Below are positions 2,376 through 16,104 of a stretch of 64,000 nt of DNA, piece after piece. The DNA comes from Gaetbulibacter sp. 4G1 (GTDB taxonomy: Bacteria > Bacteroidota > Bacteroidia > Flavobacteriales > Flavobacteriaceae): the NCBI RefSeq assembly GCF_002741945.1, contig NZ_MDVN01000020.1:1-64000 (forward strand). Direction: 5' to 3'. Numbering within the stretch: position 1 is the stretch's first letter; each line of letters opens with the position of its first letter. The translations under genes and the position numbers were made by a program. The notes under the pieces are model-generated. The model did not search any database, was not told the DNA's origin, and saw only the letters and a list, made by a program, of their open reading frames with translations.

Positions 2376-2978
2376 CTATATTTTTAAAGATTTTTCATTA
2401 AAATTGAATTTTAGTATCCCATTACCAAATAAGTAATCTTGGTATATTAATTTTATGTGGTCGTTTGGGTTTATATTATTAAAGTATAATAAGGCTCTTT
2501 TAAAAGGCGCCACTTTAAAATTTCTCTCGAAATTGACTCCCGAGCATGCAATAGTATCGTTAGATGAGGTGACTACTGTAAAATCCTTTTCTATAGTAAA
2601 TGCCATATACTTAACAGCATCATCATAAGACTTGTTAGTATACCTTTCTAATAAAAGATCGGCTTCATTACTATGCTGAAATTCTATTTCAATTATTCTT
2701 TCTTTATTATTTATATTATAAAGGGAGTCTGTTTTTTTATAGTCTAAGTTTGTGTTTTTTAATAAGTAATATTGAAGTGGTACTTCAGTGGCGGTATAAT
2801 TAATATCATTAACAAATTGATTAACACGCTTAGATTTCCAACCTTGTTGTTGTAAATTGAAGAATTTGTAATCTGATGATTCAATAGGTTTTTGAGACTT
2901 ATTGCATGAAGCAAAAAGGAAAAATACTGATAAAAGAGTAAAAGATATTGAGGGTATATACCTTCTAAAAAGTGACAT
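2376..2978 (-). CDS. Putative lipoprotein of unknown function
   Basis: About 200 residues. I chose the ATG at 2978 because a TTG seven codons upstream gives a poorer signal peptide. The N terminus is basic, then hydrophobic, and ends in the lipobox LFASC (Cys about residue 25), so the product is probably an outer-membrane or periplasmic lipoprotein. The rest is a mixed alpha/beta sequence that I cannot assign to a family. It lies between the last secretion-system gene and the giant FN3 protein, only 3 bp upstream of the latter. The paired operator-like motif at 3033-3067 lies just upstream. These two genes may therefore be coregulated with the secretion locus but transcribed from their own promoter. 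Confidence 0.75.
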   Translation of the reverse strand: MSLFRRYIPSISFTLLSVFFLFASCNKSQKPIESSDYKFFNLQQQGWKSKRVNQFVNDINYTATEVPLQYYLLKNTNLDYKKTDSLYNINNKERIIEIEFQHSNEADLLLERYTNKSYDDAVKYMAFTIEKDFTVVTSSNDTIACSGVNFERNFKVAPFKRALLYFNNINPNDHIKLIYQDYLFGNGILKFNFNEKSLKI

Positions 2979-3032
2979 ATAGCTAGGTGTTAAAATCAAC
3001 CTAAAACTACATATAGCCTTACAATCTCAATT

Positions 3033-3067
3033 AGGGTATTTCCTTCATAAAGTTAAGGAAACTCCTT
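3033..3067. promoter_or_regulatory. Paired 13-bp operator-like motif upstream of the lipoprotein/FN3 operon
   Basis: Two motifs of the form AAGG-N5-CCTT lie 22 bp apart: AGGGTATTTCCTT at 3033-3045 and AAGGAAACTCCTT at 3055-3067. The same arrangement occurs upstream of the pseudopilin operon (14270-14303) and the LytTR gene (16070-16104). The pair sits 55 bp or more upstream of the lipoprotein ATG and touches the stop codon of the preceding gene. A binding role is inferred. Confidence 0.55.
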
Positions 3068-3572
3068 AATTTTTTCCTTCGTATTTTTGGTTTGAAAACT
3101 CTAATATTTTTGATGTTACATCAATAAAATCTTCAGCATACATAACATTTCCATTACCACTTGTACCTAATATAATTTTTAAATTATTGGTTTTGGCATA
3201 TTCTTTTATGTATCCATTTAATCTATTCCAAACATTTTTACTTAAGTTATGAGCATAGTTGTCTTGAAGCTCTTGCAGGTTTTTACTTTTATACGCTATT
3301 TGCTGTTGCAAACTTTTAATTAAAGAACCCTCTTTATCTTGTATAGATTGTAGTTTTATGTATAAACTGTCTAATTCATTTCGTTGGGCGCTAATCTTTT
3401 TTTCTTCAAAAACCTTTATATCTTTTGTCATATTAAAGGCATTAAAAAGCTCAATGTTATCTATATAAACCAGCTCTTGTTTATTTATATTGGTAAAATA
3501 AAAGAACCCGAAAACTAGTAACATTAATAAAATAGCTGAGTTTACTATTGAAAGTAGATTAAATTTAGTCAT
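3066..3572 (-). CDS. Membrane-anchored OmpH/Skp-like protein
   Basis: 168 residues from the ATG at 3572. A start 14 codons upstream would sit inside the preceding gene. One N-terminal transmembrane segment is followed by a periplasmic domain with an OmpH/Skp-like pattern: YIDNIELFNAFNMTKDIK, a long charged coiled coil (about residues 55-110), then YIKEYAKTNNLKIILG and a C-terminal IDVT.KILE..N. Classical Skp is a soluble periplasmic chaperone with a cleaved signal peptide; this one appears to stay membrane-anchored. It overlaps the GspC-like gene by 8 bp and ends the secretion operon. It may chaperone a substrate or scaffold the machine, which is inference from context. Confidence 0.7.
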   Translation of the reverse strand: MTKFNLLSIVNSAILLMLLVFGFFYFTNINKQELVYIDNIELFNAFNMTKDIKVFEEKKISAQRNELDSLYIKLQSIQDKEGSLIKSLQQQIAYKSKNLQELQDNYAHNLSKNVWNRLNGYIKEYAKTNNLKIILGTSGNGNVMYAEDFIDVTSKILEFSNQKYEGKN

Positions 3573-4062
3573 GTTTTTTTTGTATTGTCTTTTTTGTATT
3601 GTTAAATGATACAATTAATGAATCGTTATATGCCTTTATTAATAAAACTTCATTTTGTATTTCCTTTTCCCTTTTTCTGTAAAGGCGATTGTTTATTTTT
3701 AATAGAATTAATGGTCTGGATTTGTTTTCTCCCATAACAAAACCGTGATAAGTTATTGTTGGCCATACTATATTTGCCTTATTAGGAGCTTTTTTAGTGT
3801 TTTTTTTCTGCGATAATTTAGCTGCTCCATGAGCAACTCGTTTTTTAACCTTATTAGAAGCCTTAAAAGGATTTGAATTTATAAGTTCTAATTTAAATGT
3901 GTCCTTAACCATTTTATAATCATTTTTATAATTATGATTAGAACTAACAAACTCTGAAGCTATCTGAGAGTGGGTTTGTTTTCCGAAATATTTATATATA
4001 ACAGAGCCCCAAATTATAACAAGTAAAACAATTAAACCGCTATTTAAATATTTCTTATTCAT
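3565..4062 (-). CDS. GspC/PilP-like inner-membrane protein
   Basis: 165 residues: a short cytoplasmic start, one transmembrane helix (about 8-26), a low-complexity Lys/Asn-rich linker, and a compact C-terminal beta domain (about 95-160) with the pattern ITYHGFVMG...RPLILLKINNRLYR.....VLLIKAYNDSLIVSF. This resembles the homology region of GspC/PulC and the PilP fold, which in type II secretion and type IV pili links the inner-membrane platform to the secretin. Sequence similarity alone is weak. Position next to GspL/GspM-like genes, topology and the beta pattern together support the call. It overlaps the downstream OmpH-like gene. Confidence 0.6.
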   Translation of the reverse strand: MNKKYLNSGLIVLLVIIWGSVIYKYFGKQTHSQIASEFVSSNHNYKNDYKMVKDTFKLELINSNPFKASNKVKKRVAHGAAKLSQKKNTKKAPNKANIVWPTITYHGFVMGENKSRPLILLKINNRLYRKREKEIQNEVLLIKAYNDSLIVSFNNTKKTIQKKHD

Positions 4063-4070
4063 TCTTAAAT

Positions 4071-5027
4071 TTATTCAACAATAATTGATCTTATTGTACT
4101 AAAATCACTTTGGTTATTGGCTGCATCAATAGCCTTAACTCTCCAGTAATATGTATTAACCAATGTAAATTCATATTGCGCAGAGTTATTGATTGTACTT
4201 ACTGAATGAGTTATGGTATTAAAATTAACGTCTGTTGAAATTTCTAAGGTATTTGTTATTTCAGATTGAATATTGCCAGAGTCCGCCCCATTTGTCCAAT
4301 TAAAAGTAACCACAGATGGATCTATAATAACCTCATCAGCAGGTAAAGACAAAGCTGGTTGACTTGGAGTAGAAGTATCAACAAAAAAAGATCGTTCTGC
4401 AAAAGATGTTTCTGATGTTGAATTAACCGCTTTAACGCTCCATACATATTCTGCATCTTCATCAAGAACAGTATCATCAAAGGATTGACTTGTAGTCATA
4501 ATGTCTTCTTGCTGAAAAACGGTTTGTTCGCCTCCTAGCTTTTTAATTAAAACGAAACTATAACTATTTGCGTTCTCAACTGCATTCCAACTACAAATAA
4601 TATCTTTGTTACTGGTATAAAAATTTTCAGAAGGTGTTTGAAGAGATACACTTTGATTCGCTAAGTCATCAGATGCAATAGTTTCAAAGTCTATAGGGAA
4701 AACATAGGGTGTTTCATAAGCAAAATTCTCTCCTCGTATTCGCCATTGGTACTGCCCTGGGTTTAACGTATAAGTAAATACATTTGACGTTACTAAAGAA
4801 TCAACTTCATATACCTGGTTTTTTTTAATAATCTGAATTCGGTAATCATCAACTCCGTCAAGGTTTTTCCATAAAAACTGTACTGTATTACCTTCTATTA
4901 CTGTTCCATTTATAGGAGATATAACTTGAATCGAATCATTACTAATATCTTTTTCCAAAATATCATCGCAAGCGAATGCCATAAAAAATAAGGCAAATCC
5001 TAAAGTTATACTATTTAGCTTTTTCAT
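4071..5027 (-). CDS. Secretion-locus lipoprotein with fibronectin type III-like repeats
   Basis: 318 residues. The signal sequence ends in a lipobox-like MAFAC (Cys 20), so a lipid anchor is likely. Three FN3-like beta-sandwich repeats follow, each with the pattern VQFLWKNLDGVDDYRIQI / ICSWNAVENANSYSFVL / VTFNWTNGADSGN and a closing YYWRVKAID or YVWSVKAVN strand. The gene overlaps the end of the GspM-like gene by 17 bp and precedes the GspC-like gene by 8 bp, so it is an integral member of the operon. No such protein belongs to the standard type II secretion or type IV pilus set. It could be a secretin accessory (pilotin-like) factor or a surface-exposed ligand, but there is no direct evidence for either. 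Confidence 0.75.
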   Translation of the reverse strand: MKKLNSITLGFALFFMAFACDDILEKDISNDSIQVISPINGTVIEGNTVQFLWKNLDGVDDYRIQIIKKNQVYEVDSLVTSNVFTYTLNPGQYQWRIRGENFAYETPYVFPIDFETIASDDLANQSVSLQTPSENFYTSNKDIICSWNAVENANSYSFVLIKKLGGEQTVFQQEDIMTTSQSFDDTVLDEDAEYVWSVKAVNSTSETSFAERSFFVDTSTPSQPALSLPADEVIIDPSVVTFNWTNGADSGNIQSEITNTLEISTDVNFNTITHSVSTINNSAQYEFTLVNTYYWRVKAIDAANNQSDFSTIRSIIVE

Positions 5028-5538
5028 AATTCTGTAATATTATTTTTAAAAAAAGGTTTTGTTTGTTTGTGATGTAATTTTTTTTTGAATAAAACGCACT
5101 ACTTATTACTCGGGAGTTTTTAAAACTTTTTTCAGTTTTATATAATGCGCTAATTAAATTTGTGTAAGAGCCCTCTAATTCAATTTGGTTTGAATAAACT
5201 AAAAACTCGTCGTCTGAATATAGATGTACATCTTCAATAGAAACAATGTTGACATCTATTCCCATTTTAGAGATGTAATCAAGAAGTTCTTGTTGCACGT
5301 CTTCTGCATCTATACTATGTGCCCCTATAACATTGTCTAATCCTTGAATTTCATTTTTTAAAGCATATAATTTATTGTAGGAATCGTCAATACTCGATAG
5401 TTTTTGCTCAACATTGTTTAGCTCTTTTTTAGCTGCAAACATATGCCTATATGTTTTTTTGTAGCAAGCCATAAAGAGAAGTGCAAATCCTATGATTACA
5501 GCAAAAAATTTCTTTTTATATGTTATATTTTCAAACAT
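5011..5538 (-). CDS. GspM/PilO-like assembly platform protein
   Basis: 175 residues: a short cytoplasmic segment, one transmembrane helix (about 10-25), a coiled coil (about 35-70: AAKKELNNVEQKLSSIDDSY...LKNEI) and a C-terminal ferredoxin-like alpha/beta domain containing IELEGSYTNLISALYKTEK. The pattern of helix, coiled coil and small domain, together with the LEGSY..LI..L..LE motif, matches PilO/GspM proteins. These pair with PilN/GspL in the inner-membrane platform. It follows the GspL-like gene after one base and overlaps the FN3 lipoprotein gene. A cysteine at the end of the membrane segment (FMAC) also resembles a lipobox but fits a membrane helix here. Confidence 0.65.
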   Translation of the reverse strand: MFENITYKKKFFAVIIGFALLFMACYKKTYRHMFAAKKELNNVEQKLSSIDDSYNKLYALKNEIQGLDNVIGAHSIDAEDVQQELLDYISKMGIDVNIVSIEDVHLYSDDEFLVYSNQIELEGSYTNLISALYKTEKSFKNSRVISSAFYSKKNYITNKQNLFLKIILQNYEKAK

Positions 5539-5539
5539 T

Positions 5540-6727
5540 TTAAATCTTAATTTTTATTACGAAAGAGTTTACATATTTACTTTCTTGGGTATAATCAACT
5601 ATCTCTAATTTATTTACCCACGAATAAGTTTTTAACCTTTTTACCCAATTATTAAATGTATTGTCGTTTGTGGTTTCTCCAGAGACACGAACAATACTAA
5701 AGTCAAAATTTATTTTCTTTGATGGGTTAATTTTTCTAATAACGGGTATGGTATTTAAGGTTTTTAATGTAATATCATTGGGAACTGAGTTGCCAATATC
5801 TACAACATATTTTGTTATAAAGTTTTTAAAATTAGCTCCGCTAGTTTGCAATATTTTTTCTTTTAACGCTTTTTCTTCTGAGAGTTTATCAACCCTTAAA
5901 ATAGTCTGTTGAGATATAGCGTAAGTAGATTCTTTTTCAGCAAGATTGCTCAAATAAGAGTTTAATAGTGTATTACTAACAAAAAGAGACGTCAAAATGA
6001 ATACAAGAGTAAAAATACCCGCCACCTTAAACCATTTTTTAAATTTAAACTCGCTTTTATTATGCTCTAAAAAAGCAATATCAAAATCCATAGCTTCATT
6101 AGGATATTTATGATTTAAAAAAGCAGCAATTAATGGTACCTCTTTTGGGTTTAATACTTCCCCTCCAAGATTAAAATTTTCTTGAGCGCTTGAGTTATTT
6201 TCAAAAGATTGAATTTTATTTTCGTTAAACTGAAGGCTATAATTTGACGATAAAATTGATGAGTAGCCATTTTCTTTTGCAAGAGGAATTAAACTCGACA
6301 TTACAAACGGTCCAAACGAAACATTAATAGTATATAGTTTAAGCGTTTTTAGAAGCGCTATAGAATCATTAATAATATGCTTTCGGATTACAGAAACAAA
6401 CACTTTACTTTCTTGATGATATTCAAAAAAATAAAAATCTTCAGGGTCAGCTTTAAAAATCACATTGTTTCTATATCCTAACTTATTTTCAACAACTTTA
6501 TTAATAATATTATCGCCTTCCAGATGTAAAATAACTGGATAGTCTTTTTTAAAAAAATCTTTAAAAGCATCATCAAGTCTATTAGAATAAGATCGCTCTT
6601 CTACCTTTAATTCATTGTTTTTAAATACTATTTGTAATAATTGATATCTAGGGGTGTTATCGGTTAAATAAATCCCTATTAAATAGTATCCATTGGTTTT
6701 GATGATATTTTTAGGTATAGTAATCAT
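5540..6727 (-). CDS. GspL-like (PilM-PilN fusion type) assembly platform protein
   Basis: 395 residues. Residues 1-230 are cytoplasmic and alpha/beta, with the spacing of a degenerate actin-like (PilM/GspL cytoplasmic) domain. One transmembrane helix (about 235-255, IFTLVFILTSLFVS) follows, then a periplasmic coiled coil and a PilN-like domain: VVDIGNSVPNDITLKTLN, then VSGETTNDNTFNNWVKRL and WVNKLEIVDY. GspL is the type II secretion protein with exactly this fused layout. It recruits the GspE ATPase to the membrane. The ATG abuts the secretin stop codon with no spacer. N-terminal conservation is low, so the name rests on topology, the PilN motifs and position. Confidence 0.65.
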   Translation of the reverse strand: MITIPKNIIKTNGYYLIGIYLTDNTPRYQLLQIVFKNNELKVEERSYSNRLDDAFKDFFKKDYPVILHLEGDNIINKVVENKLGYRNNVIFKADPEDFYFFEYHQESKVFVSVIRKHIINDSIALLKTLKLYTINVSFGPFVMSSLIPLAKENGYSSILSSNYSLQFNENKIQSFENNSSAQENFNLGGEVLNPKEVPLIAAFLNHKYPNEAMDFDIAFLEHNKSEFKFKKWFKVAGIFTLVFILTSLFVSNTLLNSYLSNLAEKESTYAISQQTILRVDKLSEEKALKEKILQTSGANFKNFITKYVVDIGNSVPNDITLKTLNTIPVIRKINPSKKINFDFSIVRVSGETTNDNTFNNWVKRLKTYSWVNKLEIVDYTQESKYVNSFVIKIKI

Positions 6728-8653
6728 TTAGTAAGTAACTTTTGGCTTTATAAAGATGTGTAGTTTAGACTTTTCTTTTCTTTTCTTTCTGCCGCTAAAT
6801 AGCCATTTAATTACTGGAATTCTTGATAAAAGCGGTGTACCTGTTCCTGAGTTTTCGTTTTCAAGCTCATCAAGACCTCCTAAAAGAATCATCTCATTAT
6901 TTTTCACACTAATCATCGATTCAAACTTTTGGGTTGACTTTCCTGGTGGTGCATCTTCTCCAGCTCTTCCTAAAAATGCACTTTTTTCAACAGATATTGT
7001 AAGCGTTACATTTTCGTCTTTAGACACATAAGGTTTAATATTTATACTTAGGTTAGCTTCAGTGGATTTCCATGTACCAGATTGAAGAATATTATTGTTA
7101 ACCCCAGAATTAATTAGTCTATTATTCTGTTCAAAATAATAGCTAGTTTCTCCTATTGAAGAAGTTGCTTCATGTCCATTAAGTGTAACTAATTTAGGGG
7201 TTGATGATAATTTAATAAGTGAGTTGTTTTCTAAGGCTTTTAGGTTTAAATAAAATTTTTCAGAAACTTTTCCTAAGTTCACGATACCTAATCCATTAAA
7301 TGCATCTATTAAACCATTAACCGATGTGGCATTTAGGTTTACATCACTTGTTGGAAATAATACTCCTGAAGTAGTTCTTTGCTCATTATCAATTCCTGCT
7401 TGCATTCCAGTCTGTATTTCGTATGATTTTTGATATTGTACAATAATTACTTCTATTTGAATGACTGGTACTACCTGATCAATCTCGTAGATATAATCCT
7501 TAAATCCTTGAATATGGCTCTTTGATCCAGAAACCACAAAACCGTTAAGTTCTACAAACTCCTTAATTTCGAGTGTTTCTGTAACTGCAGCTGGCAATGT
7601 AGTTAAAACCGTTTCTATGGTTCTGTTCTCTAATTGTATTAATTCCGTTGTCCTTAAGCCTTCAGTAGTATGCTCACCAATTAAGTATAAGTTATCTTCT
7701 TTTTTATAAGTGTAGTTTTCTCCTTTAAAAAGGTGATCTAATAAATTATCAAACGTAATACTATTAGCTACTAAAGTTGTAATAACACCTTTTGGAGTAT
7801 TATACATAAAGAAATTAATATTTAGTTTTTCAGCAGCTTCAGTAATCATTTCTGCAGCATCAGCCTCAAATGCTCTTATATCTAAAAACCCTTGAGCATT
7901 AGTTTTTATTTCAAAAACTCCTTGCCCCTCACCATTAGTAGGCTTTTCATTACGTGAGCGAGTTCTTCTACTTGAGCTTTTAGCTGTAGTAGTTTTTGGA
8001 ACTTGTGGAACAATATTTTTCTCTAAATAATAATTATCATTTTCATCCTTAGTTAATACTAAACTATTAGACTTTGCTATCATTTGAAGAACTTCATCAA
8101 TAGGTCTATTCAAAACATAGGCAGATACTTTTTGTCCCTTAACATCTGGAGCTAATACAATATTTTTTTTGGAAGCGTCAGTAATGGCTTGTGCAACTCT
8201 AGGTAGGGAATCATTTTTTAATTTAACAGATAAAAATTTATTTAATTCATTATAGGATACATCAATGGGTTTTAATGGTTTTGGTTTTTCGACAACAACT
8301 AAATCTGGTTTCTTATTAAAAATCAAAATATTATTAGAAAAATCTACTTCTAAATCATGCTTTTTAATTAAAAACAGGAATACATCTTTTATATTAACAT
8401 CGTAGAAATTACTGGTTACTAATTGATTTAAATTTGAATCTACACTAACATTTAACTGGTGTTCTTCGGCCAAAGCATTAATAAAATCATAAAGTGTTAA
8501 CCCACTTAAATCAATTCTAACATTATCTTGTAAACCTTCCTTAGTTTTTGAAAGTTCTTCTAATTTTTCAGTAAATAATTTAATATTAGTTTGTGAAAAA
8601 CTTATATTGAAAATAAGACAACAAATAATTATAAATAGAGTTCTATATTGCAT
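6728..8653 (-). CDS. Secretin (GspD/PilQ family) outer-membrane channel
   Basis: 641 residues with a signal peptide (ISFSQ). The N terminus contains repeated small secretin N-type domains: about 45-110 (IDLSGLTLYDFINALA, an STN/N0-like domain), 130-205 and 255-330. A basic Ser/Arg linker lies near 215-240. The secretin core (about 390-641) contains LIKLSSTPKLVTLNGHEA, VKNNEMILLGGL and the diagnostic TPLLSRIPVIKWLFS. Secretins form the outer-membrane ring through which pseudopili or substrates pass. The gene lies directly between the ATPase and the GspL-like gene. The call is firm at family level; whether it serves secretion or pilus extrusion is not decided by sequence. Confidence 0.93.
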   Translation of the reverse strand: MQYRTLFIIICCLIFNISFSQTNIKLFTEKLEELSKTKEGLQDNVRIDLSGLTLYDFINALAEEHQLNVSVDSNLNQLVTSNFYDVNIKDVFLFLIKKHDLEVDFSNNILIFNKKPDLVVVEKPKPLKPIDVSYNELNKFLSVKLKNDSLPRVAQAITDASKKNIVLAPDVKGQKVSAYVLNRPIDEVLQMIAKSNSLVLTKDENDNYYLEKNIVPQVPKTTTAKSSSRRTRSRNEKPTNGEGQGVFEIKTNAQGFLDIRAFEADAAEMITEAAEKLNINFFMYNTPKGVITTLVANSITFDNLLDHLFKGENYTYKKEDNLYLIGEHTTEGLRTTELIQLENRTIETVLTTLPAAVTETLEIKEFVELNGFVVSGSKSHIQGFKDYIYEIDQVVPVIQIEVIIVQYQKSYEIQTGMQAGIDNEQRTTSGVLFPTSDVNLNATSVNGLIDAFNGLGIVNLGKVSEKFYLNLKALENNSLIKLSSTPKLVTLNGHEATSSIGETSYYFEQNNRLINSGVNNNILQSGTWKSTEANLSINIKPYVSKDENVTLTISVEKSAFLGRAGEDAPPGKSTQKFESMISVKNNEMILLGGLDELENENSGTGTPLLSRIPVIKWLFSGRKKRKEKSKLHIFIKPKVTY

Positions 8654-8656
8654 AGT

Positions 8657-10063
8657 TTAATTGATAAGGATTGGGTAAATCTCATCTAATGAAGTGATTC
8701 CTTTTGTAAATAAATCAAAAGCTTTATCAGAGAGTTTTTTATTTTTCATGTGGTCAGACTGTTCTAATGTGTTTTTTTTAATTGCATCAATTACGTCACT
8801 AGTAATTGGTAATATTTCATAAATAGCTCTTCTACCTTTATATCCTGTATGATAACAATCATTACATCCAATAGCTACATGGTGTTTATTTAGTTTCTTT
8901 TTGATATTAAATGTTAATGGTAAATCATCTTCATTAAAGTCTTTTTCTTCTTTACAAGTATTGCAAAGCGTTCTTATTAATCGTTGAGCTACAGAAATAT
9001 TAATAGTTTCAGCAATTAAAAAAGAAGGCACTCCCATGTCTACTAATCTGGAAATAGTCCCTATCGCTGAATTAGTATGAATTGTAGATAATACAAGATG
9101 TCCAGTTAAAGAGGCCCTTATTGCCATTTGAGCTGTTTGTGCATCTCTTATCTCACCTAACATAATAATATCTGGATCTTGCCTTAAAAAAGAGCGTAAT
9201 GCAGATGTAAAAGTAAGTCCAATATCTTCTTTTAGCTGTACTTGGTTAATACCCTTTAAAGTATACTCTATAGGGTCTTCAACTGTAACTATATTTGTGT
9301 TTATGTTATTAAGGTACTTTAAAGTTCCGTATAGAGTAGTTGTTTTTCCTGAACCTGTAGGTCCGCTAATTAGAATAATCCCATTAGTTTTTTTTATAGC
9401 TTCTAAATATAATGGCAAATCATCTATTTCAAACCCTAATTGATTGATATCTAAATGCGAAGCATCACGTCCTAAAATACGCATAACTACTTTTTCTCCG
9501 TGGTGTGTAGGTAAAATTGAAACTCTTATATCAAATTCTTCATATTCAATCCTTCCGTCTTGTGGGAGTCTCTTTTCTGTAATATCTAAATTCGATTTAA
9601 TCTTAATTTGGTTAATTAACTCTAAATAATTCTCCTTTTTTATATTATTTTTCTCAATTAATTGCCCATCTATTCTCAACCTTACTCTAACATCATCTTC
9701 ATATATTTCTATATGAATATCACTGGCGTTAATATGCTTAGCTTCAAAAATTAAATCTTCTAAAAAATCATTTCGATACGATACTAATTTTGGTTCAGAA
9801 TCATTCCTTCTATAGTAAGTAGATAGTGCTTTTTTTATTACTGAAGATTCTACCATTTCTAAACTTACCTGTTTATTAAAGAGCATTTTTAATTCTTCTC
9901 TTATATTACTAATGGTAGACTCTTGAGTTTGGTCAATATAAAATACACCCTCTTCTTCCGAAATAGATTTAGGGATTATCAAAAAGTGATTAGCTATTTC
10001 ATAATTAATAGCTTGCTGTAAATTTACCGTTAAGGTAATATGATTGGTTTTTATTGCTTCCAT
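8657..10063 (-). CDS. GspE/PilB-type assembly ATPase
   Basis: 468 residues. Residues 1-90 form a short N-terminal domain. The ATPase follows, with a conserved DLIFEAKHINASDIHIE and RLRIDGQL entry, Walker A GPTGSGKT (residues 234-241), the Asp box TVEDPIEY, Walker B IIMLGEIRD and the His box STIHTN. A tetracysteine zinc module (CNTC...CNDC) and GYKGRRAIYE close the protein, as in GspE and PilB. It powers pseudopilus assembly from the cytoplasm. The start codon overlaps the prepilin peptidase stop by one base on the upstream side. No second, PilT-like retraction ATPase is in the window, which fits type II secretion or a non-retracting pilus better than twitching pili. Confidence 0.95.
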   Translation of the reverse strand: MEAIKTNHITLTVNLQQAINYEIANHFLIIPKSISEEEGVFYIDQTQESTISNIREELKMLFNKQVSLEMVESSVIKKALSTYYRRNDSEPKLVSYRNDFLEDLIFEAKHINASDIHIEIYEDDVRVRLRIDGQLIEKNNIKKENYLELINQIKIKSNLDITEKRLPQDGRIEYEEFDIRVSILPTHHGEKVVMRILGRDASHLDINQLGFEIDDLPLYLEAIKKTNGIILISGPTGSGKTTTLYGTLKYLNNINTNIVTVEDPIEYTLKGINQVQLKEDIGLTFTSALRSFLRQDPDIIMLGEIRDAQTAQMAIRASLTGHLVLSTIHTNSAIGTISRLVDMGVPSFLIAETINISVAQRLIRTLCNTCKEEKDFNEDDLPLTFNIKKKLNKHHVAIGCNDCYHTGYKGRRAIYEILPITSDVIDAIKKNTLEQSDHMKNKKLSDKAFDLFTKGITSLDEIYPILIN

Positions 10064-10545
10064 TAAAAAGGAGTCTTAATGTTAAAAACATTTTGTACAA
10101 CAATACTAATCGCAAGAAATAATGATAAATAACCAGCAAGTGGTATTGTTTTCATTCTTTTGAACAGTAATAATATTAGATGTAGAAATAACGAGAACAA
10201 TAAGCCCGCTATAAAAAATAAAACAAACGTTTTGAATTCAAAAAGAGGTGTTATAGCTACAAAAAAAACAATATCTCCTAAGCCAATAGCTCTGTCAATT
10301 GGATTAAATAAAGCTTTTGTTTTTAATGAAAAATAAAGCGTAAGGCCTAGTATATTAATAATTAAAAAACCAACATTAAAAAGAATATTTATTAGTTGTA
10401 AATCATTAGAAGTATAATTAATAAATATTGCAAAACAAAAAATCAATATAGGTAAGATGACGTGTATTTTTCGTTTTCTTACATCAAAATACAGTACAAA
10501 AAGCAAAGTTGTTATTAATAAAATATATTCTAAGTCAAGTATCAT
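10063..10545 (-). CDS. Prepilin peptidase (A24 family, short form without methylase domain)
   Basis: 160 residues, six predicted membrane segments. Both catalytic aspartates are recognisable: one in LYFDVRKRKI near the N terminus and one in the GxGD motif of GLGDIVFF (about residue 90). The IPLAGYLSLFL segment near the C terminus is also typical. Full-length PilD/GspO has an extra N-terminal cysteine-rich methyltransferase domain that is missing here, as in CpaA/TadV types. It would cleave the leaders of the four pseudopilins encoded around it. It is embedded between the major pseudopilin and the ATPase genes, with 1-2 bp junctions. Confidence 0.88.
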   Translation of the reverse strand: MILDLEYILLITTLLFVLYFDVRKRKIHVILPILIFCFAIFINYTSNDLQLINILFNVGFLIINILGLTLYFSLKTKALFNPIDRAIGLGDIVFFVAITPLFEFKTFVLFFIAGLLFSLFLHLILLLFKRMKTIPLAGYLSLFLAISIVVQNVFNIKTPF

Positions 10546-10546
10546 A

Positions 10547-11002
10547 TTAATCTTTTACAATTTCTTTTAATTTACGGTCTTGATCAATTTCCCATGTATT
10601 ATAAATTCCATCGCCATCAAAATCTTGTAACGCAGTTGCTGTAGCTTTAAAACTGTTTAATGATGCTTCAATAACTTCAATTTTATACACTGCTTGCCCA
10701 CCCTTATCTATCGTTAAAGCTTCTTCAAACCCTAATTCATTAAAATCTGTTGTGTATTTAGAATGTCTATAAAAATGGCTTTTTTCTAGCCCATGAATCA
10801 TACTTAACATGTTTTGCGCTTCAATAGATTTAGCGCTTGTAACTACCGATGTTTGATTTGGTACAACCAAATAAATTAAAATACCTATGATACAGAGTAC
10901 AATTAAAATCTCAGACATAGAGTATGCTTTTAAATAGAATTTATCTTTCTCTAATTTTAATCTTAATTTTTTCATTATTTTAAATTTTAAATTATTTTGC
11001 AT
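10547..11002 (-). CDS. Major pseudopilin (GspG/type IV pilin-like)
   Basis: 151 residues from an ATG that follows the GspF stop codon directly; an in-frame ATG at 10975 would shorten the leader to 17 residues. The basic leader ends at Ala26, followed by YSMSEILIVLCIIGILIYLV. The glutamate at mature position +5 and the hydrophobic helix are the hallmarks of class III signal peptides. The -1 residue is Ala instead of the usual Gly. The globular part contains EAQNMLSMIHGLEKSHFYRHSKY, which resembles GspG/PilA regions, and ends with an acidic DFDGDGIYNTWEID that may bind calcium, as the GspG C terminus does. This is the probable main subunit of the pseudopilus. Confidence 0.85.
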   Translation of the reverse strand: MQNNLKFKIMKKLRLKLEKDKFYLKAYSMSEILIVLCIIGILIYLVVPNQTSVVTSAKSIEAQNMLSMIHGLEKSHFYRHSKYTTDFNELGFEEALTIDKGGQAVYKIEVIEASLNSFKATATALQDFDGDGIYNTWEIDQDRKLKEIVKD

Positions 11003-12127
11003 CTAATTTTGAATGACTTTACTTAAATTGAATATAGGAGAGTACATTGCTATCATTATAAAACCAACAATCCCGCCAATTAAAACTATCATTATAGGTT
11101 CTAAAATGGTTCCTATCATTTTTGTTGAATGATCTATATCATCATTATATTGGTTAGCTAATTCATCATACATAGAATCTAACTCATTAATTTGCTCTCC
11201 AATAGCAGTTAATGATATAATTTTAGGTGTAAAAAACGTATGTTTTTTTAAACTAGTGGCTAATGTTTCGCCTTTAAGTATATCTTTTTTAGCTTGTGCT
11301 AACACCACTTTAAGAGGATAAAATGAAATCATCTTTTCTGTTAATTCCAAAGATGTTATTAATGGAGTTTTAGCAGACAATAAAAGTCCTAGTGATTGAC
11401 AAAATCGTGCTAAATAAATTTTTCGAACAAGGCTTCCAAAGTAAGGTATCTTTAACAAGGTGTTTGATATTATTCTTTTATAAACATCCTTTTCTTTTAA
11501 CAATTTATGCGCTATAAATATCAATAAAACGAAGCCAAGTGTTACTAAAATTATAGTATTGAAATTATTAGAAATGTTTACAACAAACTGTGTAATTTTA
11601 GGAAGTTCTTTTCCAAATTGCTGAAAAACAGAAGCAAACATTGGCACGACAAAATTTAGCATAAAATAGAGCACGCCAAAGGTGATTAGCAACACAAATA
11701 CTGGGTAGGCTAAAACAGAAACAACCTGCCGTTTCATTTTTATTTTTCTTGAAAAGAATTTTTGAAGTTCATCAAAAATATCAGGTAACCGTCTAGTATC
11801 TTCACCTATTTTTATACTATAATATTCATAAGAGGAAAAGTATTTATAATTTTTGATAGCTTGATGCAGTGATTTTCCTTTCACAACATCATTATTAATA
11901 GTTTTGTAGATGGTTTTTATAAACTTAGATTTTTGTTGATCAGTTAATATTTCCAAGGCTTGATTAAAATCTACTCCAGATTTAATTAGAGTAGAAAACT
12001 CTCTATAAAAGTCTTCTTTTTGTTTATCAGAAAAACGTTTAAAAAAAGGCATAGAAAATTTAATCTCTGTATTAAGAGCATTTTTCTTTTTTGCTTTTAG
12101 GCTATATGCACTTACTTCAATTTTCAT
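11003..12127 (-). CDS. GspF/PilC-type inner-membrane platform protein
   Basis: 374 residues with two T2SSF repeats. Each begins with a cytoplasmic helical bundle: FYREFSTLIKSGVDFNQALEIL near residue 40 and ARFCQSLGLLLSAKTPLITSLE near residue 240. Three membrane helices lie at about 145-175, 190-210 and 345-365. The C-terminal LEPIMIVLIGGIVGFIMIAMYSPIF is highly characteristic. The protein is the polytopic base on which the pseudopilus is assembled. Its start overlaps the end of the preceding small pseudopilin gene by 11 bp, and its stop abuts the major pseudopilin start. Length is close to, slightly below, the usual 400. Confidence 0.95.
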   Translation of the reverse strand: MKIEVSAYSLKAKKKNALNTEIKFSMPFFKRFSDKQKEDFYREFSTLIKSGVDFNQALEILTDQQKSKFIKTIYKTINNDVVKGKSLHQAIKNYKYFSSYEYYSIKIGEDTRRLPDIFDELQKFFSRKIKMKRQVVSVLAYPVFVLLITFGVLYFMLNFVVPMFASVFQQFGKELPKITQFVVNISNNFNTIILVTLGFVLLIFIAHKLLKEKDVYKRIISNTLLKIPYFGSLVRKIYLARFCQSLGLLLSAKTPLITSLELTEKMISFYPLKVVLAQAKKDILKGETLATSLKKHTFFTPKIISLTAIGEQINELDSMYDELANQYNDDIDHSTKMIGTILEPIMIVLIGGIVGFIMIAMYSPIFNLSKVIQN

Positions 12128-12602
12128 TAAAAAAAATGTTATTTATAGTATTGGCTCTATTCTTTCTTAAAAAATAGTTTGTAGTAATAGAATCTTCTAA
12201 TACTTCAATTGTAGCTTGAAGTGTTTTGTTTAATGGAATTGAAATGTCGCTTTGCAAAAACTCGTAATTTATAATACGAAGTTTAAAAGTGTCAGTTTTT
12301 ATATCATTTTGTCTTAAAATAAATTTCTTTAGTATAGTATAATTGATGCTTGTTCCATCATAATACTCCAATGATAATTGATTGTTATAATGGGAAAAAC
12401 TAGTTGCATTATATATATCGTTTTTAACAGCAGTATTAAATAAGTTGTATTGTAAAACACTAGTGTTTTCTTTTTGAAAAAGAATCATTTGCTTTTCTAT
12501 TAGATTAAATACAGAATAACTAAGGGCAATGATAATCCCCATTAAAATCAAACTTATCAAGGCCTCTAATACGGTGAAGCTTTTTAGATAGATACTATTC
12601 AT
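12117..12602 (-). CDS. Minor pseudopilin (GspJ/PilW-like position)
   Basis: 161 residues with a very short leader: Ser8 followed by FTVLEALISLILMGIIIAL. Glutamate at +5 and the long hydrophobic helix identify a type IV pilin-like protein; Ser at -1 is atypical. The remaining 130 residues are beta-rich with no recognisable family signature (NYTILKKFILRQNDIKT). It overlaps its neighbours by 8 and 11 bp and sits between another small pseudopilin and the platform gene. By gene order it would correspond to a GspI/J-type minor subunit of the tip complex. That assignment is inferred. Confidence 0.75.
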   Translation of the reverse strand: MNSIYLKSFTVLEALISLILMGIIIALSYSVFNLIEKQMILFQKENTSVLQYNLFNTAVKNDIYNATSFSHYNNQLSLEYYDGTSINYTILKKFILRQNDIKTDTFKLRIINYEFLQSDISIPLNKTLQATIEVLEDSITTNYFLRKNRANTINNIFFNEN

Positions 12603-12948
12603 TGTAAGGAATTAGCTTATTAATCTGATATTCTTTATTTCCAGTTTTAATTAAAAATGATAAAATTGCGGTATAAGTCTCTTCATCAATATTTACTTTT
12701 TTTATAATAGTATAACCGCTATATTTAAAAACTTCTTCATCATAATCTTGCAGTTTTTCACTTTCATAAGTTAAAAACTCAACATTATGTTTAGCTTTAT
12801 AATAATGAACAGATTTATTTTGACTAATAACATTTAAGTAAACTAAAAACGCTACTAAGCCACAAATAGAAATAATAGATATAGCTATAACAGATTCCAT
12901 TAACGATGATGCTTTTAGCATTCTTTTAAAGTGCCTTAATGACTGCAT
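12595..12948 (-). CDS. Minor pseudopilin (GspI-like position)
   Basis: 117 residues, ATG start inside the end of the upstream gene (23-bp overlap). The basic leader ends at Ala13, followed by SSLMESVIAISIISICGLVAFL. Glutamate is at mature position +5 and the hydrophobic stretch is of typical length. The small soluble part is beta-rich (YSGYTIIKKVNIDEETYTAI). It is about the size of GspI, which initiates pseudopilus tip assembly together with GspJ and GspK. The family assignment beyond type IV pilin-like is from position and size. Confidence 0.75.
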   Translation of the reverse strand: MQSLRHFKRMLKASSLMESVIAISIISICGLVAFLVYLNVISQNKSVHYYKAKHNVEFLTYESEKLQDYDEEVFKYSGYTIIKKVNIDEETYTAILSFLIKTGNKEYQINKLIPYNE

Positions 12949-14191
12949 ACTTTTTTTTATTGGATGGGTTTCTAAATAATGGAAGCTCTATAAAGTCATC
13001 AGGAAGATCCTTTTTATTTATAGATGCGTTCAAGATTACATTTTCATAATTAGAAGCTTCTGTTCTTAAAAAAAATCGATCCGTGTAAATACTTCCAATA
13101 ATTTTTCCTTTTAGCTGTGTACTCCCGTAACAATAGACATTACCTATCACACTAGCATTTTCATAAATTAGTAATTCTCGGTCTAAGGAATTATTATAAG
13201 TATTACCATCTATTACAATGCCCCCAATCAATGTGCTATTTTTTTTTATCTCAACTGAAACACTATCCGCATCATTTTTAATATATATATTAGAGGGGTA
13301 CATTAATGAAACATCTTCTTCGACAAGAACTTTTTGAGATGCAATAATTTGAACATTACCCTTAAATCCTGATGCCATTTTAACAACTGGCGCCATTATA
13401 ACGACATCGTTTAATTGTACCGAATCACCAATTTCTAAATCATTATTTGAAAACAGAATAAAATTGCCTTTACAGGCCAAGTCTTTAAGGAGCTTTATGT
13501 CGTTAAGATCTATGACTTTAGTAGTAGCATCAAATTCATTTATTAGTACTGTTTCTTTATTTATATTATTTAAAGGTAAACGAGGTAAACTAGAAACATC
13601 TATATGAATTTCTTTATCGATTTTTGGAAGTTTATCCTTAGATTTTGTCTGCTGTCCTTTTAAATTGATAGAATTTCCTCTTTGTCCATTAATATATGCT
13701 TGTTCTGAACGGCCATTTGGAATTTCAATATCTCCTTTAATTTGTGTGCTCCCTGAAAACTTTAAAGGCTTGTCATAATCAGTTACATAAAGAGCTAAAT
13801 TGCTGGTATTATCTTTTGTGTTGCCAACCAAAACTGCTTTAGAAATAGTATCTGATTTAAATACCGATTTGCAAATAAACACATCATAAAAACCCCAATT
13901 CTTTTTTTCAACAGAAGACGTAATACCATCTTCAAAAACATCAATTTCTAGTATACTATTGTAGGATACTAATTCACTATTACTTAAAAAATAATTTAAT
14001 ACCGATTCGTTTCTACCAATTAAGTCTTCTTGCAGATACAGTTTGTCATTTAAAACATTTTGATAATGCGCTATTAAAATAAAGCAGCCACAAAAAACAG
14101 AAATAATGACACAAACAAAAATGGCATTTATTAAAGAGGAACCCTTTATTAAATATTTGGTTTTTAAACTTTTATTGAAATTATTTTTCAA
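12926..14191 (-). CDS. GspK/PilX-like tip pseudopilin with beta-repeat (bactofilin-like) body
   Basis: 421 residues. The only start that keeps the leader is TTG at 14191. The leader ends at Gly17, followed by SSLINAIFVCVIISVFCGCF. Mature position +5 is Asn22, not Glu. Loss of the +5 glutamate is the hallmark of GspK, the subunit that caps the type II pseudopilus. After a linker, residues about 140-400 are a run of short beta repeats with regular hydrophobic and glycine steps, such as STQIKGDIEIP, KMASGFKGNVQIIA, NASVIGNVYCYGSTQLKGKIIG. This resembles a right-handed beta helix of bactofilin type more than the usual GspK saddle domain. It is the first gene of the operon, after the promoter at 14259-14266. 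Confidence 0.7.
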   Translation of the reverse strand: MKNNFNKSLKTKYLIKGSSLINAIFVCVIISVFCGCFILIAHYQNVLNDKLYLQEDLIGRNESVLNYFLSNSELVSYNSILEIDVFEDGITSSVEKKNWGFYDVFICKSVFKSDTISKAVLVGNTKDNTSNLALYVTDYDKPLKFSGSTQIKGDIEIPNGRSEQAYINGQRGNSINLKGQQTKSKDKLPKIDKEIHIDVSSLPRLPLNNINKETVLINEFDATTKVIDLNDIKLLKDLACKGNFILFSNNDLEIGDSVQLNDVVIMAPVVKMASGFKGNVQIIASQKVLVEEDVSLMYPSNIYIKNDADSVSVEIKKNSTLIGGIVIDGNTYNNSLDRELLIYENASVIGNVYCYGSTQLKGKIIGSIYTDRFFLRTEASNYENVILNASINKKDLPDDFIELPLFRNPSNKKKYAVIKAL

Positions 14192-14258
14192 CTTTATCTC
14201 AATTATATTTATTAATTTTTATTTTAAACATTTGCGTTTAAATTTAGGGGTGCTCGTA

Positions 14259-14266
14259 CAAAAATA
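14259..14266 (-). promoter_or_regulatory. Predicted -7 box of the pseudopilin operon
   Basis: The minus strand reads TATTTTTG, a perfect TAnnTTTG Bacteroidota -7 element. It lies about 67 bases upstream of the TTG start of the first pseudopilin gene and only 3 bases downstream of the operator-like motif at 14270-14282. No clear -33 element is present, which fits an activator-dependent promoter. Confidence 0.55.
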
Positions 14267-14269
14267 ATT

Positions 14270-14303
14270 AAGGTTATACCCTAAAATAAAAAGGGATTTC
14301 CTT
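14270..14303. promoter_or_regulatory. Paired 13-bp operator-like motif upstream of the pseudopilin operon
   Basis: AAGGTTATACCCT (14270-14282) and AAGGGATTTCCTT (14291-14303) are 21 bp apart, two helical turns. Both match the AAGG-N5-CCTT pattern also paired at 3033-3067 and 16070-16104. The position immediately upstream of the -7 box suits an activator site. LytTR-domain regulators are known to bind pairs of short direct repeats about two turns apart, so the LytTR gene at 15291-16016 is the natural candidate. Confidence 0.6.
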
Positions 14304-14313
14304 ACATTGAAGG

Positions 14314-14994
14314 TTAAATAAATCCTTTTTCATGTGCCAATTGTAATAAATCTCTATCTCCCTTCCCTTCTACATTAAAAACATCTTTCAATATTCGTTT
14401 TCTTCTTTCAAGTGCTGCTATTGACAATGGCAAAAGGTTAGGTAACTCGTTCATTTTAGTGCCATTAGACAATTCATATAAAAGTTTTCTATCAATACTG
14501 TCTATGACAAAATCATTTGCTGATTGTTTGCGCAATATTTTAATTACAGATTTACTATAATATGGCGGGTCAGAAATAACAGCTTTTACAGCCTCATTTA
14601 ATATATCAGACGTTAAATCCCCTTTAATTAAAAGAGCTTCTGGATTTACTTTTTTAAAAATACAGGATACCATATAGCTATCATTAAAAGTTGTAGATAC
14701 TATTATTTTAATATTCTCAAAACGCTTTTTTAATAATACACCTAAATCTTCCCCTCCTAAAATTTTCTTATCCTTAGAAGCAGGAAGCCTTATATCTAAA
14801 AAAGCAATATCATACGGGTTCTTTTTAGTTGCTTTATTAATTTTTAAAATTGCTGTATCACAATCATTGGCTGTATCAATAATAAATTTAAGTGCTTTAC
14901 TTTCTTGAGTAATTTGATTTAAAGTTTGCTTATAAGCATTTGTAATTAGTGGATGATCATCAATTAATAGAATTCGGTACGTACTAAGTCTCAT
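14314..14994 (-). CDS. Response regulator, canonical receiver with LuxR-like C terminus
   Basis: 226 residues. The receiver keeps all catalytic residues: Asp12-Asp13 in LIDDHP, phospho-acceptor Asp67 in FLDIRLP, Thr101/102 and Lys124 in LLIKGD. The C-terminal 70 residues (DRKLLYELSNGTKMNELPNL...SIAALERRKRILKDVF) align with the LuxR/NarL-type helix-turn-helix pattern, as in Bacteroidota regulators of this kind. It should bind DNA when phosphorylated. No histidine kinase is encoded nearby, so the partner must be elsewhere or a hybrid. It sits directly upstream of the pseudopilin operon on the same strand, and its 3' end lies 11 bp from the second operator-like motif. Confidence 0.85.
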   Translation of the reverse strand: MRLSTYRILLIDDHPLITNAYKQTLNQITQESKALKFIIDTANDCDTAILKINKATKKNPYDIAFLDIRLPASKDKKILGGEDLGVLLKKRFENIKIIVSTTFNDSYMVSCIFKKVNPEALLIKGDLTSDILNEAVKAVISDPPYYSKSVIKILRKQSANDFVIDSIDRKLLYELSNGTKMNELPNLLPLSIAALERRKRILKDVFNVEGKGDRDLLQLAHEKGFI

Positions 14995-15290
14995 AGATTA
15001 AATATTTAATTAAAAATGTTACTATTATGCTACAATTAGTTATTGCTTTGTATTTCAATTCCTAAATACACTTACTAAAACTTGTTAGTTTAAGCACAAA
15101 ATTTAGAGTTTAAATTAGAAAAAGGGATATGAAATCAATTCAATGTTCAATTGCATGAACTTATTTATAAATCTAGATTTAAATGATTTATAAACATATT
15201 ACAATAGTATTATATATATTCGAACTATATAGCGAAGCAATTAGTGAAACCTTTATTTCTATGAGTGAAGTAACACTTTTTGATAGGGAG
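14995..15290. other. Intergenic region between the two response regulator genes
   Basis: A 296-bp AT-rich gap separates the LytTR gene from the canonical response regulator. I see no convincing open reading frame, no intrinsic terminator with a U-tract, and no paired AAGG-N5-CCTT motif. The regulator at 14314-14994 presumably has its own promoter here, but no clear -7 box stands out. Confidence 0.5.
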
Positions 15291-16016
15291 TTAATTTATA
15301 CCTAAAACAGAAGTTTGGGAAAGTGAATTTATCATAGAATCAATATTATTAATATAAGTTTTACTAAAAGGCACATTTAGCAAGCACTTTTTTAGTGTGC
15401 AATTTAAAGTACCATAATTGACTCTGCTAATATGGTTTTTATTAACAATATAGCTTTTGTGAATTCTCAAAAAGTTTTTCGGTAATATGTTTTCAAAAGT
15501 TTTAAGTGTTTTATAAGCACTTACCTTATGACCGCTAGTCATATAAAAATCAGTAGTATTATTATCAGCCTTTAAATATAAAACCTCGTCTGTTTCTAAA
15601 TAACGATAATCTTTATACGATTTTAGACAAATGGTTTTATTTATTTTAATTGGATGTTTTTTTTTAAACTTCAAAATAGCTTTTCTAATATCCAATTCTG
15701 TAATTGGGTTTAATAAATAATCAAAAAAACCAGATTTTATAGCTTCGTATGTTTTTTCTTTAGAAGAAGAAACTGCAATAAACTCATAATCTTTTTTTAA
15801 ATATTGATCTACTTCATTAACAAGATTAAAAGGGTCATCTAATATAGAATCTAGATTTAAAAAAATTAAATCTGGTGTATACTTGAGAATAATACCAATA
15901 GACTCTGAATAATCATGTGCATAACCGACACAATTAAATTCATGAAAATCATCAAGTACTTTTTTAACTTTGTTAATAGTCGTTTCTTCGGTTTCAATAA
16001 TTAGATAATTAATCAA
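15291..16016 (-). CDS. LytTR-family regulator with degenerate (pseudo-)receiver
   Basis: 241 residues from a TTG start; no in-frame ATG lies nearby. Residues 1-115 have the receiver fold, but every catalytic position is changed. The acidic pair is Glu8-Thr9 (IIETEE for the usual IIDDE), the phospho-acceptor is Asn54 (IFLNLD), and the conserved lysine is Asn103 (YLLNPI for YLLKP). Residues about 130-230 are a LytTR DNA-binding domain with typical VLYLKADNNTTDFYMTSG, FLRIHKSYIVNKNHI. LytTR domains bind paired direct repeats. The protein is therefore probably constitutive or controlled by level or ligand, not by phosphorylation. A paired motif lies upstream of its own gene, suggesting autoregulation. 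Confidence 0.88.
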   Translation of the reverse strand: MINYLIIETEETTINKVKKVLDDFHEFNCVGYAHDYSESIGIILKYTPDLIFLNLDSILDDPFNLVNEVDQYLKKDYEFIAVSSSKEKTYEAIKSGFFDYLLNPITELDIRKAILKFKKKHPIKINKTICLKSYKDYRYLETDEVLYLKADNNTTDFYMTSGHKVSAYKTLKTFENILPKNFLRIHKSYIVNKNHISRVNYGTLNCTLKKCLLNVPFSKTYINNIDSMINSLSQTSVLGIN

Positions 16017-16069
16017 GGTATTTGAATTAAAATGTAAGCAATAATATTTGTATTATAATTATTTCAGGT

Positions 16070-16104
16070 AAGGTTTTACCTTTATTAAAGTAAGGCTTTT
16101 CTAT
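16070..16104. promoter_or_regulatory. Paired 13-bp operator-like motif upstream of the LytTR gene
   Basis: AAGGTTTTACCTT (16070-16082) is a perfect 5+5 palindrome around three bases. A weaker second copy, AAGGCTTTTCTAT (16092-16104), lies 22 bp away and keeps the AAGG half. The arrangement matches the pairs at 14270-14303 and 3033-3067. It lies 54 bp upstream of the LytTR start codon. Autoregulation is inferred. Confidence 0.5.

Follow-up and report, generated by a model that had tools for sequence, protein, structure and literature searches.

What reads the paired motifs in front of the secretion genes at the start of contig NZ_MDVN01000020.1 of Gaetbulibacter sp. 4G1, and what set of genes do they mark? 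The window analysed here is the first 64 kb of that contig (C19 in our numbering) of a 3.89-Mb genome. The locus in question, whose genes of concern all lie on the minus strand, encodes a predicted type II secretion system (T2SS), a partner lipoprotein and a giant FN3-like secreted protein, together with two response regulators, one with a LytTR domain and one of the NarL/LuxR type (LuxR-type hereafter). The first-pass annotation of this DNA reported six 13-bp sites in three promoter regions, all of which are present at the positions it gave, and took the embedded LytTR protein as their natural reader. We find the three paired sites, here S1, S2 and S3 (Table 1), also in genomes without an ortholog of that protein, and we propose, with a probability of roughly 0.68, that they are activator sites of a regulon of T2SS and probable cargo genes and are read by the LuxR-type regulator.

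The three pairs of sites are confirmed as real and go well beyond chance. Single AAGG-N5-CCTT sites with at most one mismatch are not enriched in the window (30 against 25.3 expected), and the site at 16092 itself departs from this pattern at two positions. Pairs spaced 20-23 bp apart with at most two mismatches in total occur in the window exactly at S1, S2 and S3, and the same pattern gives a mean of 0.05 and a maximum of 1 in 60 dinucleotide shuffles of the window; relaxed to four mismatches, it gives 18 pairs against a shuffle mean of 9.45 (maximum 17), and the excess is nearly lost. The upstream regions of LytTR orthologs provided an independent matrix, 81 being long enough and 76 remaining once identical ones were dropped. 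A de novo two-block search by unsupervised expectation maximisation (EM) on 69 regions, with the window, Flavivirga and the nearest kin left out, returned AAAnCCnTA followed 22 bp on by AAGGnAAAnCCnTA, and on 49 thinned upstream regions the EM score was 421.9, as against 114-141 for 12 shuffled sets. The spacing of the blocks is identical in 71 of the 76 regions, and 70 of the 76, mostly training data, reach at least 10 bits, the weakest being L099, L102, L097, L101, L028 and L036. A TAnnTT -7 box, which played no part in the search, stands at one offset in 62 of the 69 training promoters (37 of 44 when thinned) and in 4 of 7 held out. With a composite matrix built from 66 of these LytTR promoters, again without the window and Flavivirga, the window's three best places are S3 (29.5 bits), S2 (27.8 bits) and S1 (25.3 bits), followed by the reverse reading of S3 at 16.4 bits and the next distinct place at 15.4 bits; the maximum over 60 shuffled windows is 23.7 bits.

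Read on the minus strand, the conserved unit is a series of alternating half-sites, CCTTAC-N5-GTAAGG-N5-CCTTAC (H1, H2 and H3), with a period of ~11 bp and at a constant distance from the -7 box, so that H1 and H3 form a direct repeat with a period of 22 bp (21 bp at S2). TAnnTTTG is the -7 box of flavobacterial sigma-A promoters in the text of PMC9723704 available to us, and from their sequences the array promoters appear to carry such a box, if weakly at S3. They resemble that promoter type in having a box of this kind at a constant distance behind the array, but the box is often TAnnTTTA or TAnnTTG here and H3 occupies the -33 region. The position of the S1 box suggests that the partner lipoprotein starts at the ATG at 2978 rather than at the TTG at 2999. 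One more paired site, scoring 18.7 on the plus strand and without a -7 box, lies within the FN3 lipoprotein gene at 4860-4911.

By the LytTR gene, the closest named relatives belong to four species of Flavivirga (66-81% identity), all of which keep the locus. In F. amylovorans, F. rizhaonensis, F. aquatica and F. aquimarina the order LytTR, LuxR, pp421, pseudopilin-like genes, GspF and pilin is preserved, and it continues with peptidase, GspE, secretin and pilN (L053-L056, within the 10-kb flank); pp421, pilN, g165 and g175 are labels coined in this analysis. By the composite matrix all four genomes carry S1 (22.8-33.0 bits), S2 (16.9-29.5 bits) and S3 (27.5-33.7 bits). R1, a sequence-only profile built from 40 promoters, by itself recovers S1 and S3 in all four and S2 in sense in one (F. 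aquatica) and in antisense in one (F. rizhaonensis). Conservation in relatives that keep the locus, a check named by the first-pass annotation, thus gives a positive answer, and with the matrix ranking it bears out the view that the three promoters share one operator; the tie that had been drawn between the lipoprotein-giant FN3 operon and the machine likewise stands, through the shared operator at S1.

Extra Flavivirga sites precede second lipoprotein cassettes (L160, L165), an RHS-like gene (L170) and the second T2SS of F. amylovorans (L162, L216). These come from 16 loci read out of 35 Flavivirga R1 rows. Three of the 16 are unconvincing: L176 lies within a coding frame, no composite site at L179 reaches 15 bits, and L181 has no gene behind the site in its direction. 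The second T2SS at L216 (G397:C1:655000-674999) is of another subtype and has its own LuxR-type gene at the head, three sites of at least 19.8 bits, and large RHS-like and other proteins adjoining. A 994-aa protein there exceeds the Pfam RHS_repeat cut-off; a 1175-aa protein at L211 falls under it, and those at L205 and L262 (partial sequence) have no match. For all proteins called RHS-like here other than the 994-aa one, the name denotes sequence resemblance only.

Across the genome, equally good sites are rare, and the finding that would have undone the first-pass proposal, many equally good spaced pairs elsewhere, was not obtained. In these R1 scans 150 of several thousand first-look candidates were scored per genome, so weaker sites may be missed; E-values are rough and the counts include antisense matches of one place. 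Among the 76 rows for the Gaetbulibacter genome S2 is row 1 (25.5 bits, E 6e-5), S1 row 4 (20.4 bits) and S3 row 5 at 17.8 bits (17.7 on the other strand), barely over a background whose next other place reaches 16.0 bits. The exact paired pattern has no match across the genome in either direction because the sites are degenerate. A new site at C22:239541 (24.7 bits by R1) has the full array and -7 box (26.0 bits by the composite matrix) and precedes the gene for a 257-aa MORN-repeat protein (Pfam MORN_2); four other genomes also have a relative of this gene behind a site, namely F. aquatica (L156), F. aquimarina (L158), G038 (L261) and G061 (L274). The regulon is not fully self-contained, since the MORN site lies on another contig. 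The best off-target place, C23:235967 (20.8 bits), was taken as chance: it lies within a coding frame, presumably of a histidine-biosynthesis gene from its resemblance, reaches 13.9 composite bits and has no -7 box. We also considered the array as a general mark of LytTR genes, which is ruled out by a best score of 12.4 bits at 13 scanned of the 29 other LytTR loci in this genome.

The LytTR ortholog stands upstream of a LuxR-type regulator gene in most of the other Flavobacteriaceae examined, and in the four loci scanned (L060, L061, L065, L076) a TPR-HisKA_3 histidine kinase separates the two. Among the named LytTR loci tested (52 of 68 fetched), 51 have a LuxR relative in the flank and 6 have T2SS genes, and we therefore sought genomes that separate the factors. 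Orthologs of both regulators were surveyed in 397 genomes with up to 7 candidates scored per genome, and LytTR with all candidates in nine LytTR-less genomes, the Gaetbulibacter genome and three genus-mates, not in the 12 control genomes; the sets compared were chosen by hand, not at random. They include 24 family genomes that lack a LytTR ortholog; 12 of these have a LuxR ortholog and the other 12 have none at E <= 1e-40. R1 matches at E <= 0.01 number 23 in G249, 12 in G021, 6 in G003, 5 in G002, 2 each in G038 and G061, and 1 each in G063 and G027 of the LuxR set (16, 11 and 5 distinct places in G249, G021 and G003), with none in G001, G112, G309 and G228. The 12 controls, which have neither ortholog, give one weak match in all (G007).

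Full-strength GspE occurs among the 24 in exactly six genomes, G002, G003, G021, G249, G038 and G061, and in all six the array precedes genes for secretion or for candidate cargo. G038 and G061 keep the order of the window locus from the lipoprotein to LuxR (g175 was not called in G038) and have no LytTR gene upstream of LuxR. In both, a site directly follows the OmpH-like gene (31.3 and 21.7 bits), and another, of lower score, directly follows LuxR (18.8 and 17.3 bits). In the genus-mates G002 and G003 a LuxR-pilin-peptidase-GspE run follows ~100 bp after the array (29.4 and 28.3 bits), and none of the three genus-mates carries a LytTR ortholog. Near-perfect arrays in G021 and G249 precede LuxR-type genes, pilin genes, RHS-like genes and genes for secreted proteins that we take to resemble tail-fibre proteins. 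Most of the latter proteins are ~240-360 aa long, and several, from loci among L260-L289, L299 and L300, have a GIGTxxPxxKLxV-like stretch; one of them, L300:13195-14229, has no match in a Pfam scan, and they are possibly T2SS cargo. A LytTR operator might be expected only in genomes that encode its cognate LytTR ortholog, and the 2-23 matches in these six T2SS genomes do not follow that rule.

The converse separation is seen in LytTR-bearing genomes. Five of ten chosen (G401, G402, G405, G407, G410) have no full GspE, and they keep the array at the LytTR gene (mostly R1 training data) with LuxR nearby; in G405 most extra matches show no evident tie to secretion. G063, G112, G309 and G228 have kinase and LuxR but lack both a LytTR ortholog and full GspE; in each of them a site lies 25-28 nt past the LuxR stop codon (20.0, 27.4, 28.5 and 22.6 bits in a local scan). 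The LuxR type is the sole tested regulator common to every setting. In four genomes that lack a LytTR ortholog and full GspE (L253:520-720, L254:6612-6810, L252:680-881 and L250:6546-6750), the site and -7 box behind the LuxR-type gene are followed by a stretch of ~110 nt, which closes with a hairpin (13 bp at most) and a run of T. Rfam gives no match for it at E <= 0.1, and it could be a small RNA controlled by LuxR or a mere terminator.

The two regulators differ in what their sequences suggest. The LuxR-type protein matches Pfam Response_reg at 30.8 bits against a cut-off of 30.2, and with D67 invariant in 40 sequences it has an intact receiver with the acceptor Asp. NarL/GacA-type profiles of NCBIfam match it, all under their curated cut-offs, the GacA-type one spanning residues 7-222, and its AlphaFold model (pLDDT 91.6) predicts a four-helix, helix-turn-helix C-terminal domain (helices 166-176, 181-186, 192-205 and 213-222). 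Its nearest solved folds at full length are spr1814, RcsB, LiaR, EvgA and VraR (Foldseek E 2.7e-12 to ~1e-9), although these share 14-22% identity at TM-scores of ~0.5-0.65 and come from other bacteria with other targets. The receiver of the LytTR protein scores 23.9 bits with Response_reg, under the cut-off of 30.2, and its LytTR domain retains the RxHxSYxxN stretch. Its ortholog group, kept in many genera, mostly lacks the acceptor Asp: of 58 aligned sequences with a residue at this position, 54 have Asn and 2 have Asp.

Site geometry also bears on the reader. The inverted half-site H2 (GTAAGG) equals H1 and H3 in conservation across 32 sites of LytTR-less genomes, with the limit that these sites were picked with a matrix favouring its pattern and include some antisense readings. 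A conserved inverted H2 would suit a NarL-type dimer on inverted repeats, whereas a LytTR direct repeat needs none. ComA of Bacillus subtilis, a homodimeric NarL/LuxR-type activator with a tetrahelical helix-turn-helix, offers a parallel, since its operators consist, in the text of PMC4797271 available to us, of an inverted repeat of short elements and further elements, and H1-H2-H3 appears to follow this multipartite pattern. The ComA operators differ in being TTGCGG inverted with a 4-nt spacer plus a downstream direct repeat with a 5-nt spacer, whereas the array here combines a flavobacterial -7 box with three to four elements that alternate in direction across N5 spacers; that a NarL/LuxR-type dimer reads it in a ComA-like manner is what we infer from co-occurrence. 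A comparison by eye of the LuxR recognition helix with the site variants of the Muricauda group, made for signs of covariation, was set aside as confounded by kinship.

We now put forward a mechanism for this regulon. The array would offer 5-6-bp half-sites, CCTTAC, GTAAGG and CCTTAC, one helical turn (~11 bp) apart, and the last of these, ~22 bp before the TAnnTTT(G/A) -7 box, would bring the activator into contact with RNA polymerase in what may be a class II position. The LuxR-type reader would be activated through phosphorylation by a TPR histidine kinase, as beside its relatives, and would drive the LytTR gene from S3, the T2SS genes from S2, the lipoprotein and giant FN3 operon from S1, and the MORN gene. 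The LytTR protein, with its dead receiver, would be a member of the regulon, its own gene being target-like, and the candidate cargo would leave the cell through the T2SS. A common regulon of T2SS and candidate cargo is well supported by sequence, because the array stands in front of T2SS operons and of genes for partner lipoproteins, RHS-like giants, tail-fibre-like proteins and MORN proteins.

The clearest competitor is the LytTR protein, which would bind the H1/H3 direct repeat and activate its own gene, the T2SS genes and the S1 operon. LytTR sites are described, in the accessible text of PMC4847170, as two repeats of 9-11 nt with a spacer of 11-13 nt, a definition that the CCnTA repeats 21-22 bp apart fit, and the high scores upstream of LytTR genes and the retained RxHxSYxxN stretch also speak for it. 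The sites of YpdB and AgrA (PMC4847170, PMC4227749, as far as their accessible texts go) are direct repeats like H1/H3 at 21-22 bp, and there is a LytTR protein in the locus here, but they differ in that the sites here persist without a LytTR ortholog and the LytTR receiver has no acceptor Asp, as in most of its orthologs. The array is moreover commoner in two LytTR-less genomes, the opposite half-site H2 is left unexplained, and the other LytTR loci scanned in the Gaetbulibacter genome score low. Because the array persists in six LytTR-less T2SS genomes, of which two also share the gene order of the window locus, LytTR as reader is not supported, and we rate it as unlikely. A touch less likely still is a shared array, with LuxR on the inverted pairs and the dead-receiver LytTR protein on the direct pair as co-activator or competitor; the consensus holds both geometries and LuxR relatives flank nearly all LytTR loci tested, but a second reader is superfluous where LytTR is absent. 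It is equally doubtful that the array is a composite operator that serves two unrelated DNA-binding folds and marks the T2SS cargo set across Flavobacteriaceae; if it were, the marked cargo would include RHS-like giant proteins and tail-fibre-like secreted proteins.

Several points weigh against reading by the LuxR-type regulator. Its identity as reader comes from co-occurrence in chosen genomes in which T2SS and LuxR are partly confounded, and the LytTR-less genomes checked keep other LytTR paralogs (26-34% identical), with a LytTR gene just upstream of the kinase-LuxR pair in G003 (L259). The T2SS operons of G404 (without LuxR in the operon) and G408 (with LuxR) have no site of at least 15 bits and that of G406 has a weak one (18.4 bits), and the genome-wide absence of R1 matches noted above concerns three genomes with LuxR (G112, G309, G228) and one with a LuxR relative (G001). 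Coding sequence in the short loci with a site past the LuxR stop codon also reaches 20-23 bits, so there it is the repeated place, not score alone, that counts. No histidine kinase adjoins the LuxR-type gene in the window, Pfam GerE is not matched by its product at E <= 1e-3, though the fold agrees, and both the fit of H1/H3 alone to the published LytTR definition and the way the 32 sites were picked count here as well. The paralogs also leave room for another shared transcription factor, such as a different LytTR paralog, since the regulators compared were LytTR and LuxR orthologs only; we consider this improbable, as the sites adjoin LuxR-type genes in several unrelated settings. To chance or structural repeats without a regulator, such as terminators or elements like repetitive extragenic palindromes, we give almost no credence: S1 and S2 do lie at or just past stop codons, but the constant distance to the -7 box, conservation across many genera and rarity in the 12 control genomes speak against it. 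The LuxR-type regulator thus remains our preferred reader.

The machine itself is recognised from its domains. The run behind S2 appears to hold the component set of a T2SS: a secretin (Pfam Secretin, 119.6 bits), a GspE ATPase (T2SSE, 406.7 bits), a GspF platform protein (T2SSF, 155.7 bits, above cut-off), a pilin-like protein (sole Pfam match ComP_DUS, 20.8 bits, under its cut-off of 27.3) and a prepilin peptidase-like protein (Peptidase_A24, 21.4 bits, under its cut-off of 26.5). The OmpH-like protein matches Pfam OmpH, the two small pseudopilin-like proteins have no match in a Pfam scan, and the partner lipoprotein has none in Pfam or NCBIfam at E <= 0.001. The FN3 label of the giant protein is taken from the reading of its sequence in the first-pass annotation.

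Table 1. Coordinates of the three sites, their promoters and the genes around them in the window; half-sites are listed as read on the minus strand.
Feature	Position	Strand	Remarks
Site S1	3032..3067	-	Starts at the OmpH-like stop codon
S1 half-sites			H0 3067-3064 (AAGG), H1 3058-3054 (CCTTA), H2 3045-3042 (AAGG), H3 3036-3032 (CCCTA)
-7 box of S1 promoter	3002..3009	-	TAGTTTTA
Site S2	14269..14303	-	10 bp past the stop codon of the LuxR-type gene
S2 half-sites			H0 14303-14300 (AAGG), H1 14294-14290 (CCTTT), H2 14282-14279 (AGGG), H3 14273-14269 (CCTTA)
-7 box of S2 promoter	14239..14246	-	TAAATTTA
Site S3	16069..16104	-	Upstream of the LytTR gene
S3 half-sites			H1 16095-16091 (CCTTA), H2 16082-16079 (AAGG), H3 16073-16069 (CCTTA); good H0 absent
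-7 box of S3 promoter	16039..16046	-	TATTATTG, weak match (1.2 bits)
Partner lipoprotein gene	2376..2999	-	First gene behind S1
Giant FN3-like secreted protein gene	3..2372	-	Second gene behind S1; at least 790 aa, gene runs off the contig
T2SS gene run	3066..14191	-	Behind S2, probably a single operon; order pp421, two small pseudopilin-like proteins, GspF, pilin-like protein, prepilin peptidase-like protein, GspE, secretin, pilN-like, g175, FN3 lipoprotein, g165, OmpH-like
NarL/LuxR-type response regulator gene	14314..14994	-	Preferred reader of the sites; Pfam Response_reg 30.8 bits
LytTR response regulator gene	15291..16016	-	Probable target of S3; Asn at the phospho-acceptor position; Pfam LytTR 1.1e-18

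Type II secretion has received little study in Bacteroidota, and a systematic characterisation of its genes in this phylum is described as lacking in the accessible text of PMC5553014. The T2SS of Cytophaga hutchinsonii treated there is likewise a Bacteroidota system with divergent inner-membrane and minor components, but that text mentions neither LytTR nor LuxR, and 'regulat' occurs in it once. Among the papers listed in literature searches, none treats this regulon or Bacteroidota T2SS substrates as judged by title, and no paper in the collection searched joins LytTR, Flavobacteriaceae and a binding site. The analysis corrects the regulator that had been expected, LytTR, and points to the LuxR type, and it exposes a group of LytTR proteins with a dead receiver. 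A promoter site carried by the machine and by secreted proteins would yield, from sequence alone and in several genera, a testable list of candidate cargo.

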